The position numbers were made by a program, and so were the translations under genes. From the NCBI RefSeq assembly GCF_003688665.1, contig NZ_REFO01000012.1:62001-126000 (forward strand): a DNA stretch of 64,000 nt, in the 5' to 3' direction. A model generated the notes under the pieces. It was not told the DNA's origin. It saw nothing but the letters and a program-made list of their open reading frames with translations, and made no database searches. This stretch comes from Hydrogenothermus marinus. Its GTDB lineage: Bacteria > Aquificota > Aquificia > Aquificales > Hydrogenothermaceae. Shown in pieces: positions 2,254-30,161 of the stretch; position 1 is the first letter of the stretch; each line of letters starts with the position of its first letter.

Positions 2254-3330
2254 TTATAACTTAACTACCACCTTATTTTTACCTGTTTTTTTAGCTTCAT
2301 ATAAAGCTTCATCAGCCCTTTGGTAAATAGTGTCTACAGTATCTCCTTCTTTTACCTGAGTAACTCCTAAGCTTACAGTATAATTTATAATATCTCCATT
2401 CGTATGTACCTTCCTTGTTTCAAAAATCTGTCTTAATCTTTCTGCAACTTTTTTGGCATTTTCAATATCTACACCAGGAAGAATTATACCAAATTCCTCT
2501 CCACCAATTCTTCCTGATACTGTATTTGCCCTAAGATAAAATCTTAAAACAGCAGAAATATCTTTTAAAACCAAATCTCCTACAGGATGTCCATAAGTAT
2601 CGTTAATCTTTTTAAAATTGTCTACATCTAATAGTATTAATGAAAATATATATCCTTTCTCTTTAAAATCTTTAAGAAAATCTTCTAATGCTCTAAAAAA
2701 TCTTCTTCTGTTAGGTAAATCAGTTAAAAAGTCTTGATCAGCCTCTTTTTTTGTTATTTTTAGTTCTTCTCTTAATTTTCTAATTTCTTCATGGTATTCT
2801 TGAAGTTTCTTACTTTGAATTTGATTTTCTTCTTTGATATTCTGAAGTTCTTCAAGAATTTTTTTAATATAAAAAAGTAGAGATTCTTCCTTTATTTCTT
2901 CTTTTTTATTTTCTATCCTTTCTGTATGTTTATCTAAATTTTTTTGATGGATTTCAATATTTTTTATAATATCTTCAAGAGTATGTTCTATCTCCTCTGA
3001 AATATGAGAAATTTTATCTATAGCTAATCTAGGAATATCACCTTTACTAAAATCTTCTACATCTTCATATAGTTTTCTATATAATCCTTTAATTTCTAAA
3101 TCTGACAATTCCTTTTTATTTTCTACAATATAACAAAATACAGGAAACCATAATTCATATTGCTTTGGTAAAGGGGGAATATAATTTTTTACTAAAAAAG
3201 ATATTTCCTTTTTTAAAATATTTGTAATATTTTTAAAATCTTCTGGTGGTATATCTCTTTTATACTTATAAATATTTGAATCATCGTAATACTTAAAATA
3301 TTTACATTTTATTTCTTCTTTATCTTCCAA
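2254..3330 (-). CDS. Diguanylate cyclase (GGDEF), cytosolic, with unknown N-terminal domain
   Basis: Makes the second messenger c-di-GMP from two GTP. No signal peptide or membrane segment is visible. Residues 1-115 form an unrecognised mostly helical domain, about 115-198 a long coiled coil, and 199-358 a complete GGDEF domain: DFLTDLPNRR, LDVDNFKKIND and GGEEF at 276-280. The family's inhibitory RxxD site, nine to ten residues before GGEEF, reads RANT (267-270), so product inhibition by the usual I-site is probably lost. No EAL domain. Translation starts with TTG at 3330, four bases after the U32 gene, whose 3' end supplies the purine-rich ribosome site. Catalytic activity is inferred from the intact signature. 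Confidence 0.88.
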   Translation of the reverse strand: MEDKEEIKCKYFKYYDDSNIYKYKRDIPPEDFKNITNILKKEISFLVKNYIPPLPKQYELWFPVFCYIVENKKELSDLEIKGLYRKLYEDVEDFSKGDIPRLAIDKISHISEEIEHTLEDIIKNIEIHQKNLDKHTERIENKKEEIKEESLLFYIKKILEELQNIKEENQIQSKKLQEYHEEIRKLREELKITKKEADQDFLTDLPNRRRFFRALEDFLKDFKEKGYIFSLILLDVDNFKKINDTYGHPVGDLVLKDISAVLRFYLRANTVSGRIGGEEFGIILPGVDIENAKKVAERLRQIFETRKVHTNGDIINYTVSLGVTQVKEGDTVDTIYQRADEALYEAKKTGKNKVVVKL

Positions 3331-3333
3331 TTT

Positions 3334-4578
3334 TTATCCCACCTTTTGTAATTTATTATTTATAATATCGGAATTTTCAACTTCTTTCATTACATAAACT
3401 TTATCTCCTTTTCTTACTTTTTCAGTTGTTTTTAATCCTACAACTGTTCCTCTTTCTGCTACTTCTATATTTTTTCTATCTATCTGCATTGATTCTACTT
3501 TTTGTCTAACTACTCCTGTTTTTTTACCAATTATATGAATTGTATCTCCTATTTTCATTGGGTTGTTTATTATTTTTACTTCTGCTACAGAGATTTTAGG
3601 ATAGTAATGTACTACCTCTCCAACATAAAGTTTTTGCTCTTTTGCTATAGATTTATTAATTCCAAATAAGCCTTCTCCAAAATAAAATCCACTATCCCAT
3701 TCTCTATGGTAAACTCTTTCAAGCATATCCCATAAATCTTTCCATCCTTTAGTTTCCCATTCTCCATTTAATATTCTATCTCTTGCTTCTCTATATGCTT
3801 TTGTAACCATATATGCATAATCTGGATTTTTATTTCTACCTTCTATTTTCCAGCTATCTGCCCACATTAATTTATCAACAAAATTTATTGTTACTAAATC
3901 TCTTGCAGATAAAACATAATCACTACCTAAAACAAAATCTGTTCCTGTGTTTTTGGATGTTATTTTAACCTCAAACTCATGCCTACAAACCTGATTGCAT
4001 TCTCCTCTATTTCCTGAAGTTTCAAAAACATCATGGGATAAAAAGCATCTTCCTGAAACTGCCATACACATAGCACCATGTATGAATATCTCTATTTCAA
4101 GATTTGTTTTTCTTTTTAGGTCTAAAAGTCCTTCTAATTTAACTTCTCTAGCAGGTACTATTCTTTTTATTCCCATATTTTCATAAAATTTTGCTGCTTG
4201 AGAGTTAGAAACAGATGCCATAGTAGAAAGATGGGTTTCTATACCAAGTTCTAAAGATTTAGATAAAACAGCCATATCCCATCCTATTACTGCATCTACT
4301 CCAATTTCCTTTAATTGATGTAAAGTTTCATTTATTTCTGGAAGATCCTCTTCAAATACTATTGAGTTTAAAACTATATATTGCCTAATACCTTTATCTT
4401 GAGTAATTTTTCTTATTTCTTTTACATCTTCAATATCAAAATTTGCTTTTCTTGCTCTTTGATTTATTCTTCCACAACCCATATATATTGCATCAGCACC
4501 TGCTTTTATTACAGCTGCTAATCCTTCATAATGTCCTACAGGTGCTAAAATCTCAGGTTTATTTTTTATTTCAGACAT
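3334..4578 (-). CDS. Peptidase U32 family protein (TrhP/RlhA-type RNA hydroxylation family)
   Basis: A 414-residue member of the U32 family. Despite the name, characterised bacterial members (TrhP/YegQ, RlhA) work with prephenate-derived chemistry and iron-sulfur clusters in RNA hydroxylation, so peptidase activity should not be assumed. The TIM-barrel-like start EILAPVGHYEGLAAVIKAGADAIY and the signature around SGRCFLS are present. Four cysteines (C171, C178, C194, C198) are placed as expected for the family's cluster. The C-terminal 90 residues look like the beta-barrel U32 C-domain. First gene of the minus-strand run, divergent from trpC. Which RNA it modifies cannot be told from sequence alone. 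Confidence 0.85.
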   Translation of the reverse strand: MSEIKNKPEILAPVGHYEGLAAVIKAGADAIYMGCGRINQRARKANFDIEDVKEIRKITQDKGIRQYIVLNSIVFEEDLPEINETLHQLKEIGVDAVIGWDMAVLSKSLELGIETHLSTMASVSNSQAAKFYENMGIKRIVPAREVKLEGLLDLKRKTNLEIEIFIHGAMCMAVSGRCFLSHDVFETSGNRGECNQVCRHEFEVKITSKNTGTDFVLGSDYVLSARDLVTINFVDKLMWADSWKIEGRNKNPDYAYMVTKAYREARDRILNGEWETKGWKDLWDMLERVYHREWDSGFYFGEGLFGINKSIAKEQKLYVGEVVHYYPKISVAEVKIINNPMKIGDTIHIIGKKTGVVRQKVESMQIDRKNIEVAERGTVVGLKTTEKVRKGDKVYVMKEVENSDIINNKLQKVG

Positions 4579-23349: not shown

Positions 23350-23460
23350 TTTTTTGTAAATGTAGGTTAAACACTTATGTTTTTGGCTTTTTGTTTTACT
23401 TTTCAAAATATAATGACTTATATCATATTCTCATACTATATCTATTTTTATAATACTGAT

Positions 23461-23482
23461 TGAAATTGAGATTTAATCTCAA
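23461..23482. promoter_or_regulatory. Fur-type operator upstream of the 56-aa ORF and apbE
   Basis: The palindrome TTGAGATTTAATCTCAA (23466-23482) fits the 7-1-7 Fur/PerR layout TGAGAAT-n-ATTCTCA with one mismatch. It lies 22 bases before the likely start at 23505 and overlaps where a transcript would begin (TATAAT at 23450-23455). The 22-base block is identical at 21 positions to the one at 26107. The binding protein is inferred; no fur gene is in the window. Confidence 0.65.
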
Positions 23483-23504
23483 AAATTTGTCAAGAGGTGA
23501 AAAA

Positions 23505-23675
23505 ATGTCAGTTAAAGAGATTAATTCAGAAGTAGAAAATATTTCTTTTGAATTTTTAAATATCCTTGAAAAAACAAGGAATCCTGAAGAAAGGATAAAA
23601 ATATTTGAAACATATTATAAAGTTCTTTTAATGCTTGAAAAGATTAAAGAGTCTGAAATTAAGATTGATAAATAA
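23505..23675 (+). CDS. 56-aa helical protein of unknown function ahead of apbE
   Basis: Start chosen at ATG 23505, behind AAGAGGTG, rather than the upstream TTG at 23460, which would put the coding region across the Fur-type operator. The product is charged and almost certainly all helical (VSFEFLNILEKTRNP-like pattern, then ERIKIFETYYKVLLMLEKI), soluble, with no cysteine or histidine cluster. It is not recognised. Its 3' end overlaps the start of apbE. It could be a small regulatory or assembly partner, or merely a leader peptide. Confidence 0.5.
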   Translation: MSVKEINSEVENISFEFLNILEKTRNPEERIKIFETYYKVLLMLEKIKESEIKIDK

Positions 23676-24585
23676 AGTTTTATTAATAATTCTTATCTCT
23701 GTTTCTTTTGCTTTTTCTATAGAAAGAACAAAATATTTAATGGGAACTTATGTTTCCATTAATTTACCAAAAGAAAATAAATATTTATTTAAACCTTCTT
23801 TTAATATTATTAAACAGGTAGATTTAAAATTTTCAAAATATAATCCAAAAAGCTATTTATATAAATTAAATAAACATAAAAAAGCAAAAATAGATAAAGA
23901 GTTCCTAAAACTTTTAAATATTTCTCTTCAGATAAATAAAAAAACATATGGATATTTTGATATATCCTTAGGAAATTTAACAAAGAAATATGGAAGTTTC
24001 TATATAAAAGAAAATAAAAATCAAAAATATACAATAGGAATAGAAAATATAAAAATAAAAGATGGATATATATACCTTTTAAATAATATAAGTTTAGATT
24101 TTGGGGCAATTGGTAAAGGATATGCCATTGATAAAATTTCAAATTTTTTAGAAAAAAAGAAAGTAAAAAAAGCTATTATAAAGTTAAGTGGAGATATAAG
24201 ATGTTTTGATATATGTAATATATGTATAAAAAATCCTTTTAAAGAAGGATTTATAAAATGCTTTAAAACAAAATATAAAAATACATCAATATCAACAAGT
24301 GGAAATTATGAAAGATATATAAAGACAAAAGAAAACAATCATTTAATAAATCCTAAAACAAAAAAATCTGAAAAAAATTTTGCTTCTATAACTTTAATAG
24401 GGATAAAAAACAATACATATCTTGATGCTTATACAACGGCAGTATCTGTTATGCCAGAAAAGTTAGCTATAAAATTTTTAGAAGAAAATAAAATTGGATA
24501 TTTTATAATAAAAATTAATGGTGAAATTCTAATTAATAAAAAATTTAAATCAATGGTTGAGTTTACTAATAATATTGAAAAATAA
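23635..24585 (+). CDS. apbE: ApbE-type FAD:protein FMN transferase
   Basis: Covalently attaches FMN to threonine in periplasmic flavoproteins. 306-316 residues. The mature part begins RTKYLMGTYVSINLP, then has GYFDISLGNLTKKYG, the flavin-binding LDFGAIGKGYAIDKIS, a conserved glycine-rich KLSGDI, STSGNYERYI and the metal-site segment DAYTTAVSVM. All are ApbE landmarks. Two TTG starts are possible: 23635, or 23665, which gives a compact signal peptide INKVLLIILISVSFAFS; the latter seems better. A target flavoprotein with the matching TGAT motif is encoded nearby at 25465-25991. Convergent with the membrane gene at 24550, overlapping 36 bases. Confidence 0.88.
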   Translation: MKRLKSLKLRLINKVLLIILISVSFAFSIERTKYLMGTYVSINLPKENKYLFKPSFNIIKQVDLKFSKYNPKSYLYKLNKHKKAKIDKEFLKLLNISLQINKKTYGYFDISLGNLTKKYGSFYIKENKNQKYTIGIENIKIKDGYIYLLNNISLDFGAIGKGYAIDKISNFLEKKKVKKAIIKLSGDIRCFDICNICIKNPFKEGFIKCFKTKYKNTSISTSGNYERYIKTKENNHLINPKTKKSEKNFASITLIGIKNNTYLDAYTTAVSVMPEKLAIKFLEENKIGYFIIKINGEILINKKFKSMVEFTNNIEK

Positions 24586-24996
24586 AATAAATATCATCAA
24601 AAAAATTCCAAATTCAAAGGTTAAAAAAGAAAAGATTTTTAAATAAGCAAAGGAGGAAGATATTTTTAAAATTAAAAAATTAGAAATAATATCTAAAAAT
24701 CCTGCTAAAAAAGTAATTCCAGATAGTATAAAATGATAAATCTTTATTTTAAAAAAGTATAATAAGTGAGAAATAATAAAAATAACTAAAAATATTGCAA
24801 AAAAATGAGGCATTACTATCTCAATAAGCCCTAAAACTGTTTTTGGATTTATAAATTTATCAGGATTTCCAAGAATATGATTAGATATATAACTTACAGT
24901 AAATCCATACTTTTCATAAAATAAAAATATTCCTGTTAAAATCTGAAAAATGAAAAGAATTATAAATAAAGCTATAGTAATTTTTACAATTTTCAT
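24550..24996 (-). CDS. Four-helix membrane protein, paralogue of its upstream neighbour
   Basis: 148 residues with four hydrophobic helices (about 5-27, 58-83, 87-108, 118-143). Two histidines in helix two (MPHFFAIFLVIFIISHLLYF) are 13 residues apart, a spacing that could ligate heme within a membrane helix, though this is unproven. The stretch ILGNPDKFINPKTVLGLIE aligns with LKGNPDIFLEPKDLVSIIE of the neighbouring gene, showing a tandem duplication. It overlaps that gene by four bases. Family not recognised; its operon partner is an FMN-binding protein. Confidence 0.65.
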   Translation of the reverse strand: MKIVKITIALFIILFIFQILTGIFLFYEKYGFTVSYISNHILGNPDKFINPKTVLGLIEIVMPHFFAIFLVIFIISHLLYFFKIKIYHFILSGITFLAGFLDIISNFLILKISSSFAYLKIFSFLTFEFGIFLMIFILFFNIISKLNH

Positions 24997-25468
24997 TTAA
25001 TCTTACCTGTTAGAAAACATACTAAATTTAAAGAATTTACAACTATGCCTATAACAAAAATAGTTATTAAAGAGATAAAATAAATATAAGAAAAAAAATC
25101 AGATAAATATCTAATAGCAAAAATAGAAGATATATAAATAAATACAGATAAAAACCCAAGAAATATAAAGATTAACTTTAAACTATTTTTTATATTTGTC
25201 CTTATTAATATAGAAAAAATTGTTAAAAAGAAAACAATCAGCAAAAAAGACTCTATATGAAGATTTTCTATTATAGAAACTAAATCCTTAGGTTCCAAAA
25301 ATATATCAGGATTTCCTTTTAAAGATAATATTATTTGAGTAGGAAAAAATTCCTTAGATAAATATTTATATCCTAAAAAGAAAAAACAAAAAAATAAAGT
25401 CCTAAGCTAAATAGAACTACTAAAAAATTAATATAATTTGCTTTTTTATGTTGAACTACAAATCTCAT
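24993..25468 (-). pseudogene. Four-helix membrane protein, frameshifted paralogue
   Basis: Translation from ATG 25468 (behind AAAGGATAA) runs 31 codons and stops at TAG 25373-25375. One base added in the adjoining A-runs (plus strand 25375-25394: A5 G A6 C A7) joins it to the downstream frame LGYKYLSKEFFPTQ and on to the stop at 24993. That gives a continuous 158-residue protein with four helices, collinear with the 148-aa product of the next gene. The region length (476) is one base short of a codon multiple. A frame from 25298 on its own would lack the first helix. Confidence 0.7.
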
Positions 25469-25991
25469 TTTATTTTATCCTTTAAAGCAATTTCACATAT
25501 ATATATAGATTCTCTTACTGCATCAGCAGTAGCTCTTGAAGAAAGAGTCGCACCTGTAGCATTTGGAATATTTCTTTTTAAATATGGTGGATTTTTTTAT
25601 CTTTATCCTTTAATAAATTTAACCAGTTTTTATTTAACATATATTCAGGAGGTTCATAAAATGCTATTATCTCTACATCTTTTACTTTACAATCTTTATC
25701 AAAAGATATTAAAATTACCTCATTTTTGGTTCTTACTTTGTGAGAATGAAGTATAGCATAACCTATAATCTTATTATCTTTTTTAACAATATATGTTGTA
25801 AAAATATTTGAATTTAATTTTTTTCCTGATAATTTCTCTATTTTTTTCTTTTGAGAAGATAATAAAAGTATATTTTTCTTTTCATATTTTGCATTTGGAA
25901 AATTTTCCTTTAAAACTTCTTTAGGCATTATTAATAAACCTGCATATGAGATATTAAATAAAACTGTTAAAAATAAAAATATTTTCTTCAT
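25465..25991 (-). pseudogene. Secreted FMN-binding domain protein, frameshifted before its flavinylation motif
   Basis: The intact first frame encodes a signal peptide (KKIFLFLTVLFNISYA) and about 120 residues of an FMN-binding domain, then stops at 25578 after a frameshift. In the next frame the sequence continues as NPPYLKRNIPNATGATLSSRA, shortened here, then ADAVRESIYICEIALKDKIK. NATGATLSS is the ApbE flavinylation motif (D/N-x-T-G-A-T-x-S/T-S/T). The break is at the A7 run (plus strand T7, 25592-25598); one added base restores 175 residues. The restored stop overlaps the next ATG by exactly ATGA, which strongly supports the original frame. Probable periplasmic electron carrier flavinylated by the ApbE at 23635. 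Confidence 0.75.
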
Positions 25992-26106
25992 TTTCTTACC
26001 TCTTTTTTTTAATAGTTTAATAAAACTAATTTACAAAAATATGACAAAACTAACTATCAAATCATAAAACTTTTTTAATTTTTCATTTACTATTTTATCA
26101 AAATTT

Positions 26107-26128
26107 TGAAATTGAGATTTATTCTCAA
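26107..26128. promoter_or_regulatory. Fur-type operator in the divergent region before the porin and FMN-binding genes
   Basis: TTGAGATTTATTCTCAA (26112-26128) is a 7-1-7 Fur/PerR-like palindrome, closer to consensus than its copy at 23466. It lies 23 bases before the porin start and 120 bases from the divergent FMN-binding gene, so it could act on one or both directions. Confidence 0.65.
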
Positions 26129-26151
26129 TAATAATATTAAGAGGAGACAAA

Positions 26152-27423
26152 ATGAAAAAACTTGCAGTATTGGCTTTAACTACAGGATTAACTGCTGGAG
26201 TATTTGCTGATTCTGAATTAGATACTATAAAACAAAAATTAAAAACACTTGAGGAACAAAATCAGCAGTTAATTGATGAAATAGCTAATCTAAAGCAGCA
26301 AGTGGCTATACCTGAACTTAGACAAAAACAGTTTGCAGGTCTGGGATATGCAGCTTCTAAGGTTTATTTTTCACCAAAAGGTTTATCTATAGGTGGATAT
26401 GGAGAGATAATTTATCAAAACTGGGAAAAAGATAAAAAAGATACTACAGATTTATATAGGTTTATTCCATATATTGGATACAAATTTACAGATAATATAG
26501 TACTTAATGCAGAAATAGAGTTTGAACATGGTGCAAATCCAGAAAGGGGAGGAGAGGTTGCTGTAGAATTTGCATATATTGATTTCCTTCTAAATAAATG
26601 AGCAAATATAAGAATAGGTAATATGTTAATTCCTGTTGGAATTACAAACTTAATGCATGAGCCTATATTTTTTAATTCTGTAAATAGACCAGAAGTAGAA
26701 ACAAAAATAATTCCATCAACATGGAATGAAAATGGAATAATGATATTTAGTAATACCGATACATTTACATATTATGCTGGAATAGTTAATGGTTTAAGAG
26801 CAGTAAAATCTGGAGAAATTGGTTTTTCTTCTGGTAGCTGGATAAGAGGAGGAAGACAAGCAGGAGCCAAAGCATTAGCTGAAGATTTTGCAGTTGTTGG
26901 TAGATTTGATTATACAGGTATAGAAGGTCTTTTAGTAGGTGGTTCTGTATATAGAGGAAATTCTGGACAAGGAGAATTAGATGCATCAGGAAATAAAATT
27001 GATGGAACTGTCAGTCTTTATGAGGCACACCTTAAATATAACTGGCAAGGGTTAGAACTAACAGGTTTATATGTTAAAGGTTATTTAGATGATGCAGATA
27101 AAATTTCCTCGATAAATAGTGAAGTTATAGGGAAAGAAGCTTATGGGTATTATATTAATGTTGCTTATGATGTTTACCAACTAATTAATAAAGAATCAAA
27201 TTTTGCATTACCTATTTTTGCAAGATATGAAAAATATAATACTCAAGAAAAAGTACCTTCAGGATTTTCAGCAGACAAATCTAATGATAAAATTATATGG
27301 ATTATAGGTTTTAATTTTAAACCTCATCCAAATATAATCCTAAAAGCAGATTATCAGTTTAGAGACAATAAAAAAGAAGATGAAGCTGATGTGTTTGAAC
27401 TTGGAGTTGGTTTCATATCCTAA
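26152..27423 (+). pseudogene. Outer-membrane porin (phosphate-selective porin O/P-like) with an in-frame TGA
   Basis: Signal peptide (1-19), a periplasmic coiled coil (LDTIKQKLKTLEEQNQQLI) and a beta-barrel. Codon 150 (26599-26601) is TGA, and the same frame continues without shift through ANIRIGNMLIPVGI and on to the stop at 27423, giving 423 residues if read through. IPVGITNLMHEP and NRPEVETKIIPSTWNENG are typical of this porin class, and the barrel ends GVGFIS. The TGA is most likely a recent point mutation (for example from TGG). An ATG at 26623 could only start a barrel fragment without signal peptide. Followed 14 bases later by the cytochrome-porin fusion. Confidence 0.7.
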
Positions 27424-27437
27424 CTGGAGGTACAAAA

Positions 27438-30161
27438 ATGAAATATAAATTAGTTTTAACTGGAATTATCTCTTCAGCCTTCTTATATGGATGTAATATT
27501 GGAGGAGCTAATATATCTGATCCAGTTGGAGAGTATGATGAAAATGAGGTAAAGCCTGCTAAATTAGTAGCAGGTTTTCCATGGTTTAGTAAATATAAAA
27601 ATCCAACTGCATACATACCATTAGAATGTTATACAGATACAGGTAAAGCAAAAACAGGAGAAGCTTTTGCTAATCCTTGCTATGTATGTCATAATGCAGG
27701 AAATACACCAGTAGATAATGCAGGGGATTGGGAAAATCAGATTAACTGGCTTAGATTCCCTGCAAATGATAATCCATGGCTGAATGCAGTAGCACCTGAA
27801 AAAACAATTGAAAAACCTTTATCTAATGGAAAAAAATGGACAGAACTTGATGAAATAAATAATCAAGTAAAAGATAATAAAGAAAATAAAATTATTAAAA
27901 TTGATGATTGGATAAAACAGAATAACTGGGAAGATGCTTATAATAATGAAGTTTATATTGGTAGCGATAATCCTTTTGGTCTTGGAAAATACAAATTAGA
28001 TATACCACCTCTCTATAAATGGGACTCAAACAATAACAGATTTGTAAAAACAAACTATATAGATAATGAAGGCTTTATATACTCTTCAGAAAATGAACAC
28101 ACTAACAATACAAACACATGGTGGAGAGCTTATGATTGGAAACACTTTCCAGGATTTTTCCCTACAAATGGAAGACTTGATTCTGCTATGATAAGACTTC
28201 CTGAAGTATTTAGGAAAGAAAATGGACAATATAATAAAGAAATTTATAAAATAAATTTGGCAATACTTGAGTGTGCTGTAAAACAGTTAACAGAAAATTG
28301 TGAAGTAGAACCTTTAGATACAAATTTATTAGACAGATATGGAATTAATTATACAACTACAAATAGTACAATCATATTTAATCAAGTACCAAATAAGTAT
28401 ATGGGAGATGCTTCTAATATTGATGTATGGCAAATAAAATCAGATGGAACTAAAGTTGGACTTTATCCTGTAGGAACAGAACTTGCACATCCTATTTATT
28501 ATATTGATCCAGACTGGGAAAGTAGACCTGATTTAGCAGCAAAAACAGGACATCTAAAAGAGTTCAGGTATATGAAAAAATTAGCTATGCCTGATATAAA
28601 TGTTGGAGGAGAAGAGGAAGAGGAAAATATAGATTACTTTCCTTATGATAATGGCTTAATGCCAAATGATCCAGAAACATGGTTAATGGGTGGATGGATA
28701 GAAGATAAAGATGGGAAATTAAGACCTCAATCAGAAGAAGAAATGGCATTTTGTATGGCTTGTCATGGTGCTATAAGTGGTACAGTTGATAGTACTTTCA
28801 CATATTGGAGAAAATTAACTGGTAGTACTGGTTGGAAAGATACAGATTATGGATATAATAAAGATGTAAAAGATATAAAATATTGGGCTGAAAAACTTAA
28901 TCAGATAGAAGATGAAAATGCTTCAGTATATCTTGGTAAAATTGCAGGTAAGTATGATCCAAAGGATTATGGAGAATACCAACTATACTTTACAATGACA
29001 AATGGTATAGATCATTTTAGAAGTAATAAAGAAGGTATATGTAGAATTTTAGGATATGATACTTATGATCAATCAAATGATAATTGTAAAAAAACAACTT
29101 CTCAAAAAATAGAAGAATTAAAAGAACTTTTAATAAATGTTAGAACTACTTTCATCATCCAAAATGCAAACAACGTTAATAATGATCAATCTAAAAAAAG
29201 CATAACTGATGGTTCCTATTCTATAGATTTAGAGATTGGAAAAGAGTTTTCTAAAAATGATAAAGTATATTTATATTTTGAACATGGTAACGGAACAGGA
29301 GTTACTGATGAATTACAACTATTTGGTAATGTAAATGCTGATGCTACAGGTGAAGAAAGTCTTTATTTAGTTGAAGGTTGGTATGAATATAATTTTCAAA
29401 ATTTTCCTTTAAAATTAACAGTTGGACAACTTGATCCTACCTGTTATATAGATGATAATGAATATGCAAATGATGAAACTATCCAATTTTTATCAGATAT
29501 ATTTGTAAATTCTCCTGCTATAGATTTTCCTTCATCTTCTATTGGAGCAAATTTTCAGTTAAGTCTATTAAATTTTTTAGATATAGACTTTTTATCTATG
29601 TCAGCTAAAAGTAATTTAGAAGATATATTTGATGATATGTTTATTGCTAATCAGTTTAAATTTAAAACAAAAATTTTTAATAAATCTGGAAATTATAGAT
29701 TTTATATTTGGGTAAATACTTCTAAACATACCAAATGGAATAATCCTTTAAAAACAAATGAAAAAAATTATGGTTTTGGAGTAAGTTTTGACCAAGAGAT
29801 AACTGATATTATAGGAATATTTTTCAGATATAGCTGGCAAAACCCAAAAGTTTATATAGAAGATAATGGTTTCAATATTGAACATTTTTGGAGTATTGGT
29901 TTCCAAATAAATGGTAATTTATGGAAAAGAGAAAATGATACTTTTGGAATAGGCTTTGGACAATTAATCCCTTCTAATGATTTCAAAAATTCAGTTAATC
30001 AAAAACTTGAATCAGAAAATCATTTAGAAGCTTACTATAATTTTCAACTTAATAAACATCTAAATTTATCACCAGATTTACAAATAATATGGAATCCTTA
30101 TGGAGACTCTAATAGTGATACTATTTATGTTTTAGGAATGAGAGGTCAATTAAATTTTTAA
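27438..30161 (+). CDS. Di-heme c-type cytochrome lipoprotein fused to an OprB-type porin barrel
   Basis: 907 residues behind a GGAGG site. A short signal ends in the lipobox LYGC (C19). Residues 40-560 form a large extracytoplasmic domain with two covalent heme sites, CYVCH (81-85) and CMACH (439-443), and an acidic patch GGEEEEENIDY near 391-401. From about 565 the sequence is an OprB-like beta-barrel: LTVGQLDP, NEYANDETIQFLSD, GFGVSFDQEI, DTFGIGFGQLI, LEAYYNFQLNKHLNLSPDLQ, and terminal LGMRGQLNF ending in Phe. Heme and barrel in one chain recalls the layout of Cyc2-type cytochrome-porins but with a different, larger heme domain and barrel family. Likely an outer-membrane electron conduit or redox-gated porin; function is inferred. 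Fur-type site upstream of its operon. Confidence 0.8.
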   Translation: MKYKLVLTGIISSAFLYGCNIGGANISDPVGEYDENEVKPAKLVAGFPWFSKYKNPTAYIPLECYTDTGKAKTGEAFANPCYVCHNAGNTPVDNAGDWENQINWLRFPANDNPWLNAVAPEKTIEKPLSNGKKWTELDEINNQVKDNKENKIIKIDDWIKQNNWEDAYNNEVYIGSDNPFGLGKYKLDIPPLYKWDSNNNRFVKTNYIDNEGFIYSSENEHTNNTNTWWRAYDWKHFPGFFPTNGRLDSAMIRLPEVFRKENGQYNKEIYKINLAILECAVKQLTENCEVEPLDTNLLDRYGINYTTTNSTIIFNQVPNKYMGDASNIDVWQIKSDGTKVGLYPVGTELAHPIYYIDPDWESRPDLAAKTGHLKEFRYMKKLAMPDINVGGEEEEENIDYFPYDNGLMPNDPETWLMGGWIEDKDGKLRPQSEEEMAFCMACHGAISGTVDSTFTYWRKLTGSTGWKDTDYGYNKDVKDIKYWAEKLNQIEDENASVYLGKIAGKYDPKDYGEYQLYFTMTNGIDHFRSNKEGICRILGYDTYDQSNDNCKKTTSQKIEELKELLINVRTTFIIQNANNVNNDQSKKSITDGSYSIDLEIGKEFSKNDKVYLYFEHGNGTGVTDELQLFGNVNADATGEESLYLVEGWYEYNFQNFPLKLTVGQLDPTCYIDDNEYANDETIQFLSDIFVNSPAIDFPSSSIGANFQLSLLNFLDIDFLSMSAKSNLEDIFDDMFIANQFKFKTKIFNKSGNYRFYIWVNTSKHTKWNNPLKTNEKNYGFGVSFDQEITDIIGIFFRYSWQNPKVYIEDNGFNIEHFWSIGFQINGNLWKRENDTFGIGFGQLIPSNDFKNSVNQKLESENHLEAYYNFQLNKHLNLSPDLQIIWNPYGDSNSDTIYVLGMRGQLNF

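Follow-up and report, generated by a model that had tools for sequence, protein, structure and literature searches.

What might a bacterium do with a flavin transferase, a secreted flavoprotein, paired membrane proteins, a porin and a cytochrome-barrel fusion, all encoded behind Fur-type operators? Such a module occupies positions 23,460-30,161 of the 64,000-nucleotide stretch of Hydrogenothermus marinus DNA analyzed here (contig NZ_REFO01000012.1; "the window" below). The genome comprises 1.60 Mb in 18 contigs, and its nearest relatives are the Hydrogenothermaceae, in the Aquificota. An earlier note on this DNA described an iron-controlled module with the logic of flavin-based electron transfer outside the cytosol, in which the fusion would carry electrons across the outer membrane, and offered reductive iron uptake as an alternative. 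We consider it likely that the module is an undescribed Fur-controlled, flavin-based system that would reduce Fe(III) outside the cytoplasm for import by Feo, a function predicted from gene content, gene neighborhoods and operators. The features of the locus are listed below (FMN, flavin mononucleotide; FAD, flavin adenine dinucleotide; aa, amino acids).

23462..23482 (palindrome 23466-23482): Fur-type operator 1, GAAATTGAGATTTAATCTCAA, a 7-1-7 palindrome 22 bp 5' of orf56.
23505..23675, plus strand: orf56, a small conserved 56-aa protein; its 3' end overlaps the ApbE start.
23665..24585, plus strand: ApbE, FAD:protein FMN transferase, with a TTG start and a signal peptide (PF02424, expectation value (E) 7e-52).
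24550..24996, minus strand: TM2, an intact four-helix membrane protein with invariant His64 and His77 (from alignment; helices from the model of a fused homologue).
24993..25468, minus strand: TM1, a four-helix membrane protein and paralogue of TM2, with a frameshift near 25380 (tblastn).
25465..25991, minus strand: secreted FMN-binding protein, with a frameshift near 25580 (tblastn).
26108..26128 (palindrome 26112-26128): Fur-type operator 2, GAAATTGAGATTTATTCTCAA, between the divergent FMN-binding and porin genes.
26152..27423, plus strand: Porin_O_P-like porin with a coiled-coil N-terminus and an in-frame TGA at 26599-26601.
27438..30161, plus strand: 907-aa fusion of a lipoprotein di-heme cytochrome and an OprB barrel; CXXCH motifs at 27678-27692 and 28752-28766, barrel at about 29220-30158.

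The module recurs well beyond this genome. Its core cassette consists of a porin, an FMN-binding protein and a TM protein (the family of TM1 and TM2), often with ApbE, and is found in Aquificota, Campylobacterota and Desulfobacterota. Among Aquificota, 70 of 136 genomes (51 of the 88 good ones) carry TM genes, as do 22 of 298 Campylobacterota and 14 of 297 Desulfobacterota genomes. The earlier note had proposed a gene-neighborhood survey and held that homologues which never co-occur would refute it; the survey found them together, with an FMN-binding gene adjacent to TM at 34 of 35 Aquificota loci, a porin at 29 and ApbE within 7 kb at 14. ApbE itself was correctly recognized, and is present as a single copy in the whole genome. 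FMN_bind was identified in the window gene, its relatives score above the Pfam cut-off, and a TGAT, SGAT or TGST flavinylation motif was present in all 34 of these relatives. In the window, the stop and start codons of the minus-strand genes TM2, TM1 and FMN-binding protein overlap.

The recurring order in Campylobacterota is porin, FMN-binding protein, TM1, TM2 and a convergent ApbE, which is found beside most clusters. Readable Desulfobacterota clusters consist of a porin, an FMN-binding protein and a single TM protein; L273, L274, L278 and L281-L284 gave no readable cluster with a simple open reading frame picker and were left out of the counts. A riboflavin synthesis gene of the RibB/RibBA type adjoins ApbE in Campylobacterota loci L246, L248-L252, L254 and L258, which suggests coupling between flavin supply and the cassette. 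A DUF2325-type small protein is encoded beside the cassette in both Aquificota and Desulfobacterota (L033:9903-10253, L044:7078-7380, L047:6880-7191, L200:10611-10895 and L280:4412-5124), and in L280 a Fur-like box precedes this gene.

Fur-type iron control of the module is strongly supported by its operator sequences. Two Fur-type sites had been described as heading the plus-strand runs, one of them also facing the minus-strand run, and palindromes were found at both places. TTGAGA-N5-TCTCAA occurs exactly, across the 1.6-Mb genome, only at 23466-23482 and 26112-26128. The 20-mer GAAATTGAGATTTAWTCTCA, with a 7-1-7 layout as in the Fur box, is present in exactly three copies in the genome, and no further match with fewer than three mismatches was found there. 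Two copies head the module's runs and the third lies 18 bp 5' of feoA-feoB, which includes the only classical feoB found in the genome. The genome encodes two Fur-family proteins, with genes at C11:299063 and C13:164067.

A scan of 0.79 Mb of Aquificota loci with the pattern TGAKAWTNAWTMTCA returned 16 exact matches, all 16 upstream of porin, FMN-binding, ApbE, small-ORF (open reading frame), OprB or feo genes. Such upstream regions make up 5.9% of the bases and a Markov control expects 0 matches. Because the loci are related, they are less independent than the binomial p of 2e-20 implies; the pattern had also been drawn up from the window's own sites. The Campylobacterota serve as an independent test, with at least 12 of 14 matches to the classical consensus TGATAATNATTATCA as threshold. 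Here 19 of 21 clusters have a Fur box at their 5' side, and 11 have two; of the 37 sites, 30 lie in the 2.1% of bases upstream of cassette genes. In Desulfobacterota, cluster L280 has a 13/14 Fur box before the porin. Regulon and neighborhood evidence from three phyla supports both the iron control and the flavin-based extracytosolic electron-transfer logic of the earlier note. The small orf56 is conserved in Aquificota, and the operator stands at its start in all 12 relatives counted.

What would an iron-controlled flavin pathway act on? The module adjoins feoAB in L037, L041 and L218, and an OprB gene adjoins feoB in five other genomes (L151, L153, L154, L156 and L159). Because the operator is shared with feoAB, the module adjoins feoAB and the OprB gene adjoins feoB, reductive iron uptake, earlier offered only as an alternative, fits better than an outer-membrane conduit. 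The sequence indicates iron control, not the substrate, and Fur might instead induce a periplasmic flavin electron path for a task that does not involve iron, such as repair or service to a redox enzyme; such an iron-sparing or stress system would be in keeping with the MntP and DsbH-type neighbors of some Campylobacterota loci. We regard this as unlikely, as both adjacencies and an operator shared within the same genome point toward Feo.

In the mechanism that we propose for ferric reduction, iron starvation would cause Fur to leave the operators, and the porin would admit ferric chelates to the periplasm. ApbE would attach FMN to the secreted FMN-binding protein, and the TM1/TM2 pair, as a candidate b-type cytochrome, would pass electrons from the quinone pool, putatively from quinol, to this flavoprotein. 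The flavoprotein would then reduce Fe(III), helped in some Aquificota by an outer-membrane-anchored di-heme cytochrome, and FeoAB would import the resulting Fe(II). An OprB-type porin may be a further participant. The substrate, presumed to be iron, is the weakest link of this mechanism.

Several points weigh against ferric reduction for Feo. Iron control alone is no proof of iron reduction. TonB-type receptors are encoded in 119 of 136 Aquificota genomes, and reductive uptake is not the sole possible route. Models of the TM proteins are of low confidence, and fold searches with them gave no telling match. Finally, three genes of the system are broken in this genome, as described below. A lack of TonB receptors was also considered as an argument for reductive uptake and was rejected, as most Aquificota carry some.

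Some Hydrogenothermaceae genera have two TM genes; Aquificaceae and two other genera have one fused gene of about 306 aa. Searched against Pfam, nine fused members and the window TM1 and TM2 had no hit at E<=1, and the Campylobacterota proteins none at E<=0.05; at these thresholds no PepSY, MsrQ, DUF4405, NapH, NqrB-RnfD or DsbD domain was found in TM proteins. TM2 has two histidines, 13 residues apart in one helix, that are invariant in 29 of 29 proteins from three phyla, and one histidine of TM1 is invariant in 21 of 21. A 13-residue spacing resembles that of heme-ligand pairs in b-type cytochromes, and for this reason we propose TM1/TM2 as a candidate b-type membrane cytochrome, with heme as a putative cofactor. 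For a fused member, structure prediction gave a model of eight long helices with a mean pLDDT (predicted local distance difference test) of 68. A likeness of the TM model to heme A synthase (Foldseek E 0.37; VIA Z 5.1 over one half) was loose, stood among many unrelated helical proteins and was not used. The single TM protein of Desulfobacterota suggests that the ancestral form was a homodimer.

The fuller proposal is that TM proteins form an unnamed family of quinol-oxidizing b-type cytochromes, built from four-helix units that are single, paired or fused, which together with the porin and the flavinylated carrier make up an undescribed reductive iron-uptake machine of at least three phyla, one that supplies Feo by reducing, in the periplasm, ferric chelates admitted by the porin. 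We hold the chances of this proposal to be evenly balanced.

What, then, is the role of the cytochrome-porin? The earlier note identified it correctly as a di-heme protein: the 907-aa frame is open and contains two CXXCH motifs and an OprB barrel (PF04966 E 7e-29, 101.7 bits against a cut-off of 22.9). The same barrel scores 31.7 bits against the "iron uptake porin" model NF033921, far under its cut-off of 100. In relatives, the cytochrome (about 510-705 aa) and OprB (about 310-365 aa) are separate genes. The fusion lacks the end of the cytochrome, a stretch with positions that are conserved in at least 90% of the family, and OprB follows in frame; among the 81 genomes searched, no other was found to carry the fusion. 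Because of this loss and this singularity, the fusion is a poor basis for a mechanism, and is a local oddity rather than the essence of the system. The di-heme cytochrome, present at 12 of the 35 Aquificota TM loci, is an Aquificota add-on that is optional to the system.

These findings bear on the proposal that electrons cross the outer membrane through the fusion. Respiratory extracellular electron transfer, with the cytochrome-porin delivering electrons across the outer membrane to minerals or other acceptors, would account for redox parts for the membrane, periplasm and outer membrane in one cluster, and for the pentaheme cytochrome encoded in some Campylobacterota clusters. Against this, the Fur-type operators common to the module and feoAB point to assimilation rather than respiration. 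As the system can do without the cytochrome and the fusion was seen in no other genome searched, we reject a respiratory conduit as its main function and rate this reading as quite improbable. The Campylobacterota pentaheme cytochrome (about 367 aa; L246:5943-7046, L249:7323-8423, L250:2434-3537 and L252:7425-8528) possibly replaces the di-heme cytochrome.

A cytochrome fused to an outer-membrane barrel also recalls the Fe(II) oxidase Cyc2, in which a short cytochrome domain with a single CXXCH, and AXPXFAR[QK][TY] just upstream, is fused to a 16-strand porin (PMC8406198). The likeness ends with a c-type cytochrome joined to an outer-membrane barrel. The window fusion is a one-off with a di-heme domain of 580 aa, two CXXCH instead of one, an OprB-type barrel and no PXFAR[QK][TY] in its sequence, and relatives encode cytochrome and barrel separately. 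Membership in Cyc2 was rejected because heme number, motif and barrel type differ, and an outer-membrane Fe(II) oxidase of this kind is extremely improbable.

The cytochrome belongs to a broad family, with 113 relatives found, which outside Aquificota mostly lie beside a PhoX-like protein and not beside flavin genes. As these non-Aquificota relatives occur without ApbE or FMN-binding genes, the di-heme cytochrome was rejected as a hallmark of the system. In L083-L149, relatives from Proteobacteria, Campylobacterota, Verrucomicrobiota, Myxococcota and others adjoin the PhoX-like (PF05787) protein in 40 loci, as a two-gene set. Much longer forms (1,058-1,248 aa), which may carry additional domains by fusion, are encoded at L085:9446-12931, L091:9749-12925 and L148:7862-11608. 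The central domain of the cytochrome weakly resembles cytochrome P460/c'-beta (Z 6.2, root-mean-square deviation 3.7, 138 aligned); these folds fill the top 17 rows of the search (Z 6.2 to 4.1) and are a lead only. The PF16694 match is weak and below cut-off, and sequence searches of solved structures with the cytochrome gave no match. Compared with P460/c'-beta, the window cytochrome is far larger and has an extra N-terminal heme domain.

Is the module intact in this strain? The earlier note had read the FMN-binding, TM1 and porin genes through their breaks and missed the lesions, which are two 1-nucleotide frameshifts and an in-frame TGA, all within 1.3 kb. In tblastn comparisons with same-genus relatives, the FMN-binding gene is split over frames -3 and -2 (25991-25593 and 25623-25468). 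Its identity as a secreted FMN-binding protein stands, but 25465-25991 is not one open frame and the TGAT motif falls out of frame after the frameshift near 25580. Both members of the reported pair of four-helix membrane proteins are present, but TM1 is split over two frames (25468-25376 and 25394-24996). The porin is Porin_O_P-like as described, but is interrupted by the TGA, where four close relatives have a Trp.

The three lesions may be sequencing or assembly errors in a module that is intact in the strain. This possibility concerns the copy and not the family, is compatible with ferric reduction for Feo, and deserves some weight while being the less probable account. Two of the lesions are one-base losses in T runs, and the ApbE and 907-aa fusion frames remain open. 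The third, however, is a substitution-type stop, and the lesions are clustered, with no comparable break elsewhere in the window: in the remainder of the 64 kb, open frames cover 96% and the sole clearly coding gap is that of TM1 and the FMN-binding gene. In addition, L217, from the same genus, lacks the porin and FMN-binding genes at this locus. Decay is favored over sequencing error because of the clustering, and, given three broken genes and a one-off fusion, this strain's copy of the system is probably in decay. At the L217 locus (2966-4449), TM1 and TM2 are kept and a motif-like site lies upstream.

How does the module compare with known flavin systems? Listeria-type flavin-based extracellular electron transfer likewise combines an FMN transferase with a flavinylated carrier and with membrane proteins at a single locus. 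The module differs in its Gram-negative envelope, porin, Fur operators and Feo link, and no Ndh2-type dehydrogenase was seen in the cluster. Several ApbE-flavinylated systems have been linked to iron assimilation, and PepSY-like clusters were reported to be Fur-repressed (PMC8238504). The ApbE-flavinylated electron-transfer systems of that study (PepSY-like, MsrQ-like, NapH-like, DsbD and Nqr/Rnf-like) share with the module ApbE, a secreted FMN-binding protein and a membrane partner, but the module's partner matches none of their Pfam families and a Porin_O_P-type porin is a core gene. DUF4405 was found from apbE clusters without a known membrane partner, the logic used here for the TM family, and FezC was modeled as a homodimer (PMC11334425). 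Like DUF4405/FezC, TM proteins are small helical membrane proteins with a central invariant His in flavinylation or iron contexts; they differ in having no DUF4405 Pfam match and in their four-helix units, which are single, duplicated or fused into eight, and heme is in their case a putative cofactor. The fusion's C-terminal barrel belongs to the OprB family, with the weak NF033921 match given above to cyanobacterial iron uptake porins, from which it differs in being fused to a cytochrome.

The main text of PMC8238504 makes no mention of Aquificota, porins or feoB, and that of PMC11334425 none of Aquificota or a porin component. No described Aquificota or Campylobacterota system of this kind was found in the literature searched, which covered few subscription papers. 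ApbE-linked iron assimilation is known as an idea (PMC8238504; PMC11334425); the TM family without a Pfam match and the porin as a core gene set the module apart.

While the striking cytochrome-porin fusion belongs to an apparently decaying locus, the conserved cassette, if read correctly, would add an iron-assimilation route in deep-branching thermophiles and sulfur-oxidizing Campylobacterota. It would also point to a transmembrane partner for flavinylated proteins beyond present domain libraries, and would let the way in which these bacteria reduce iron for Feo be tested directly.

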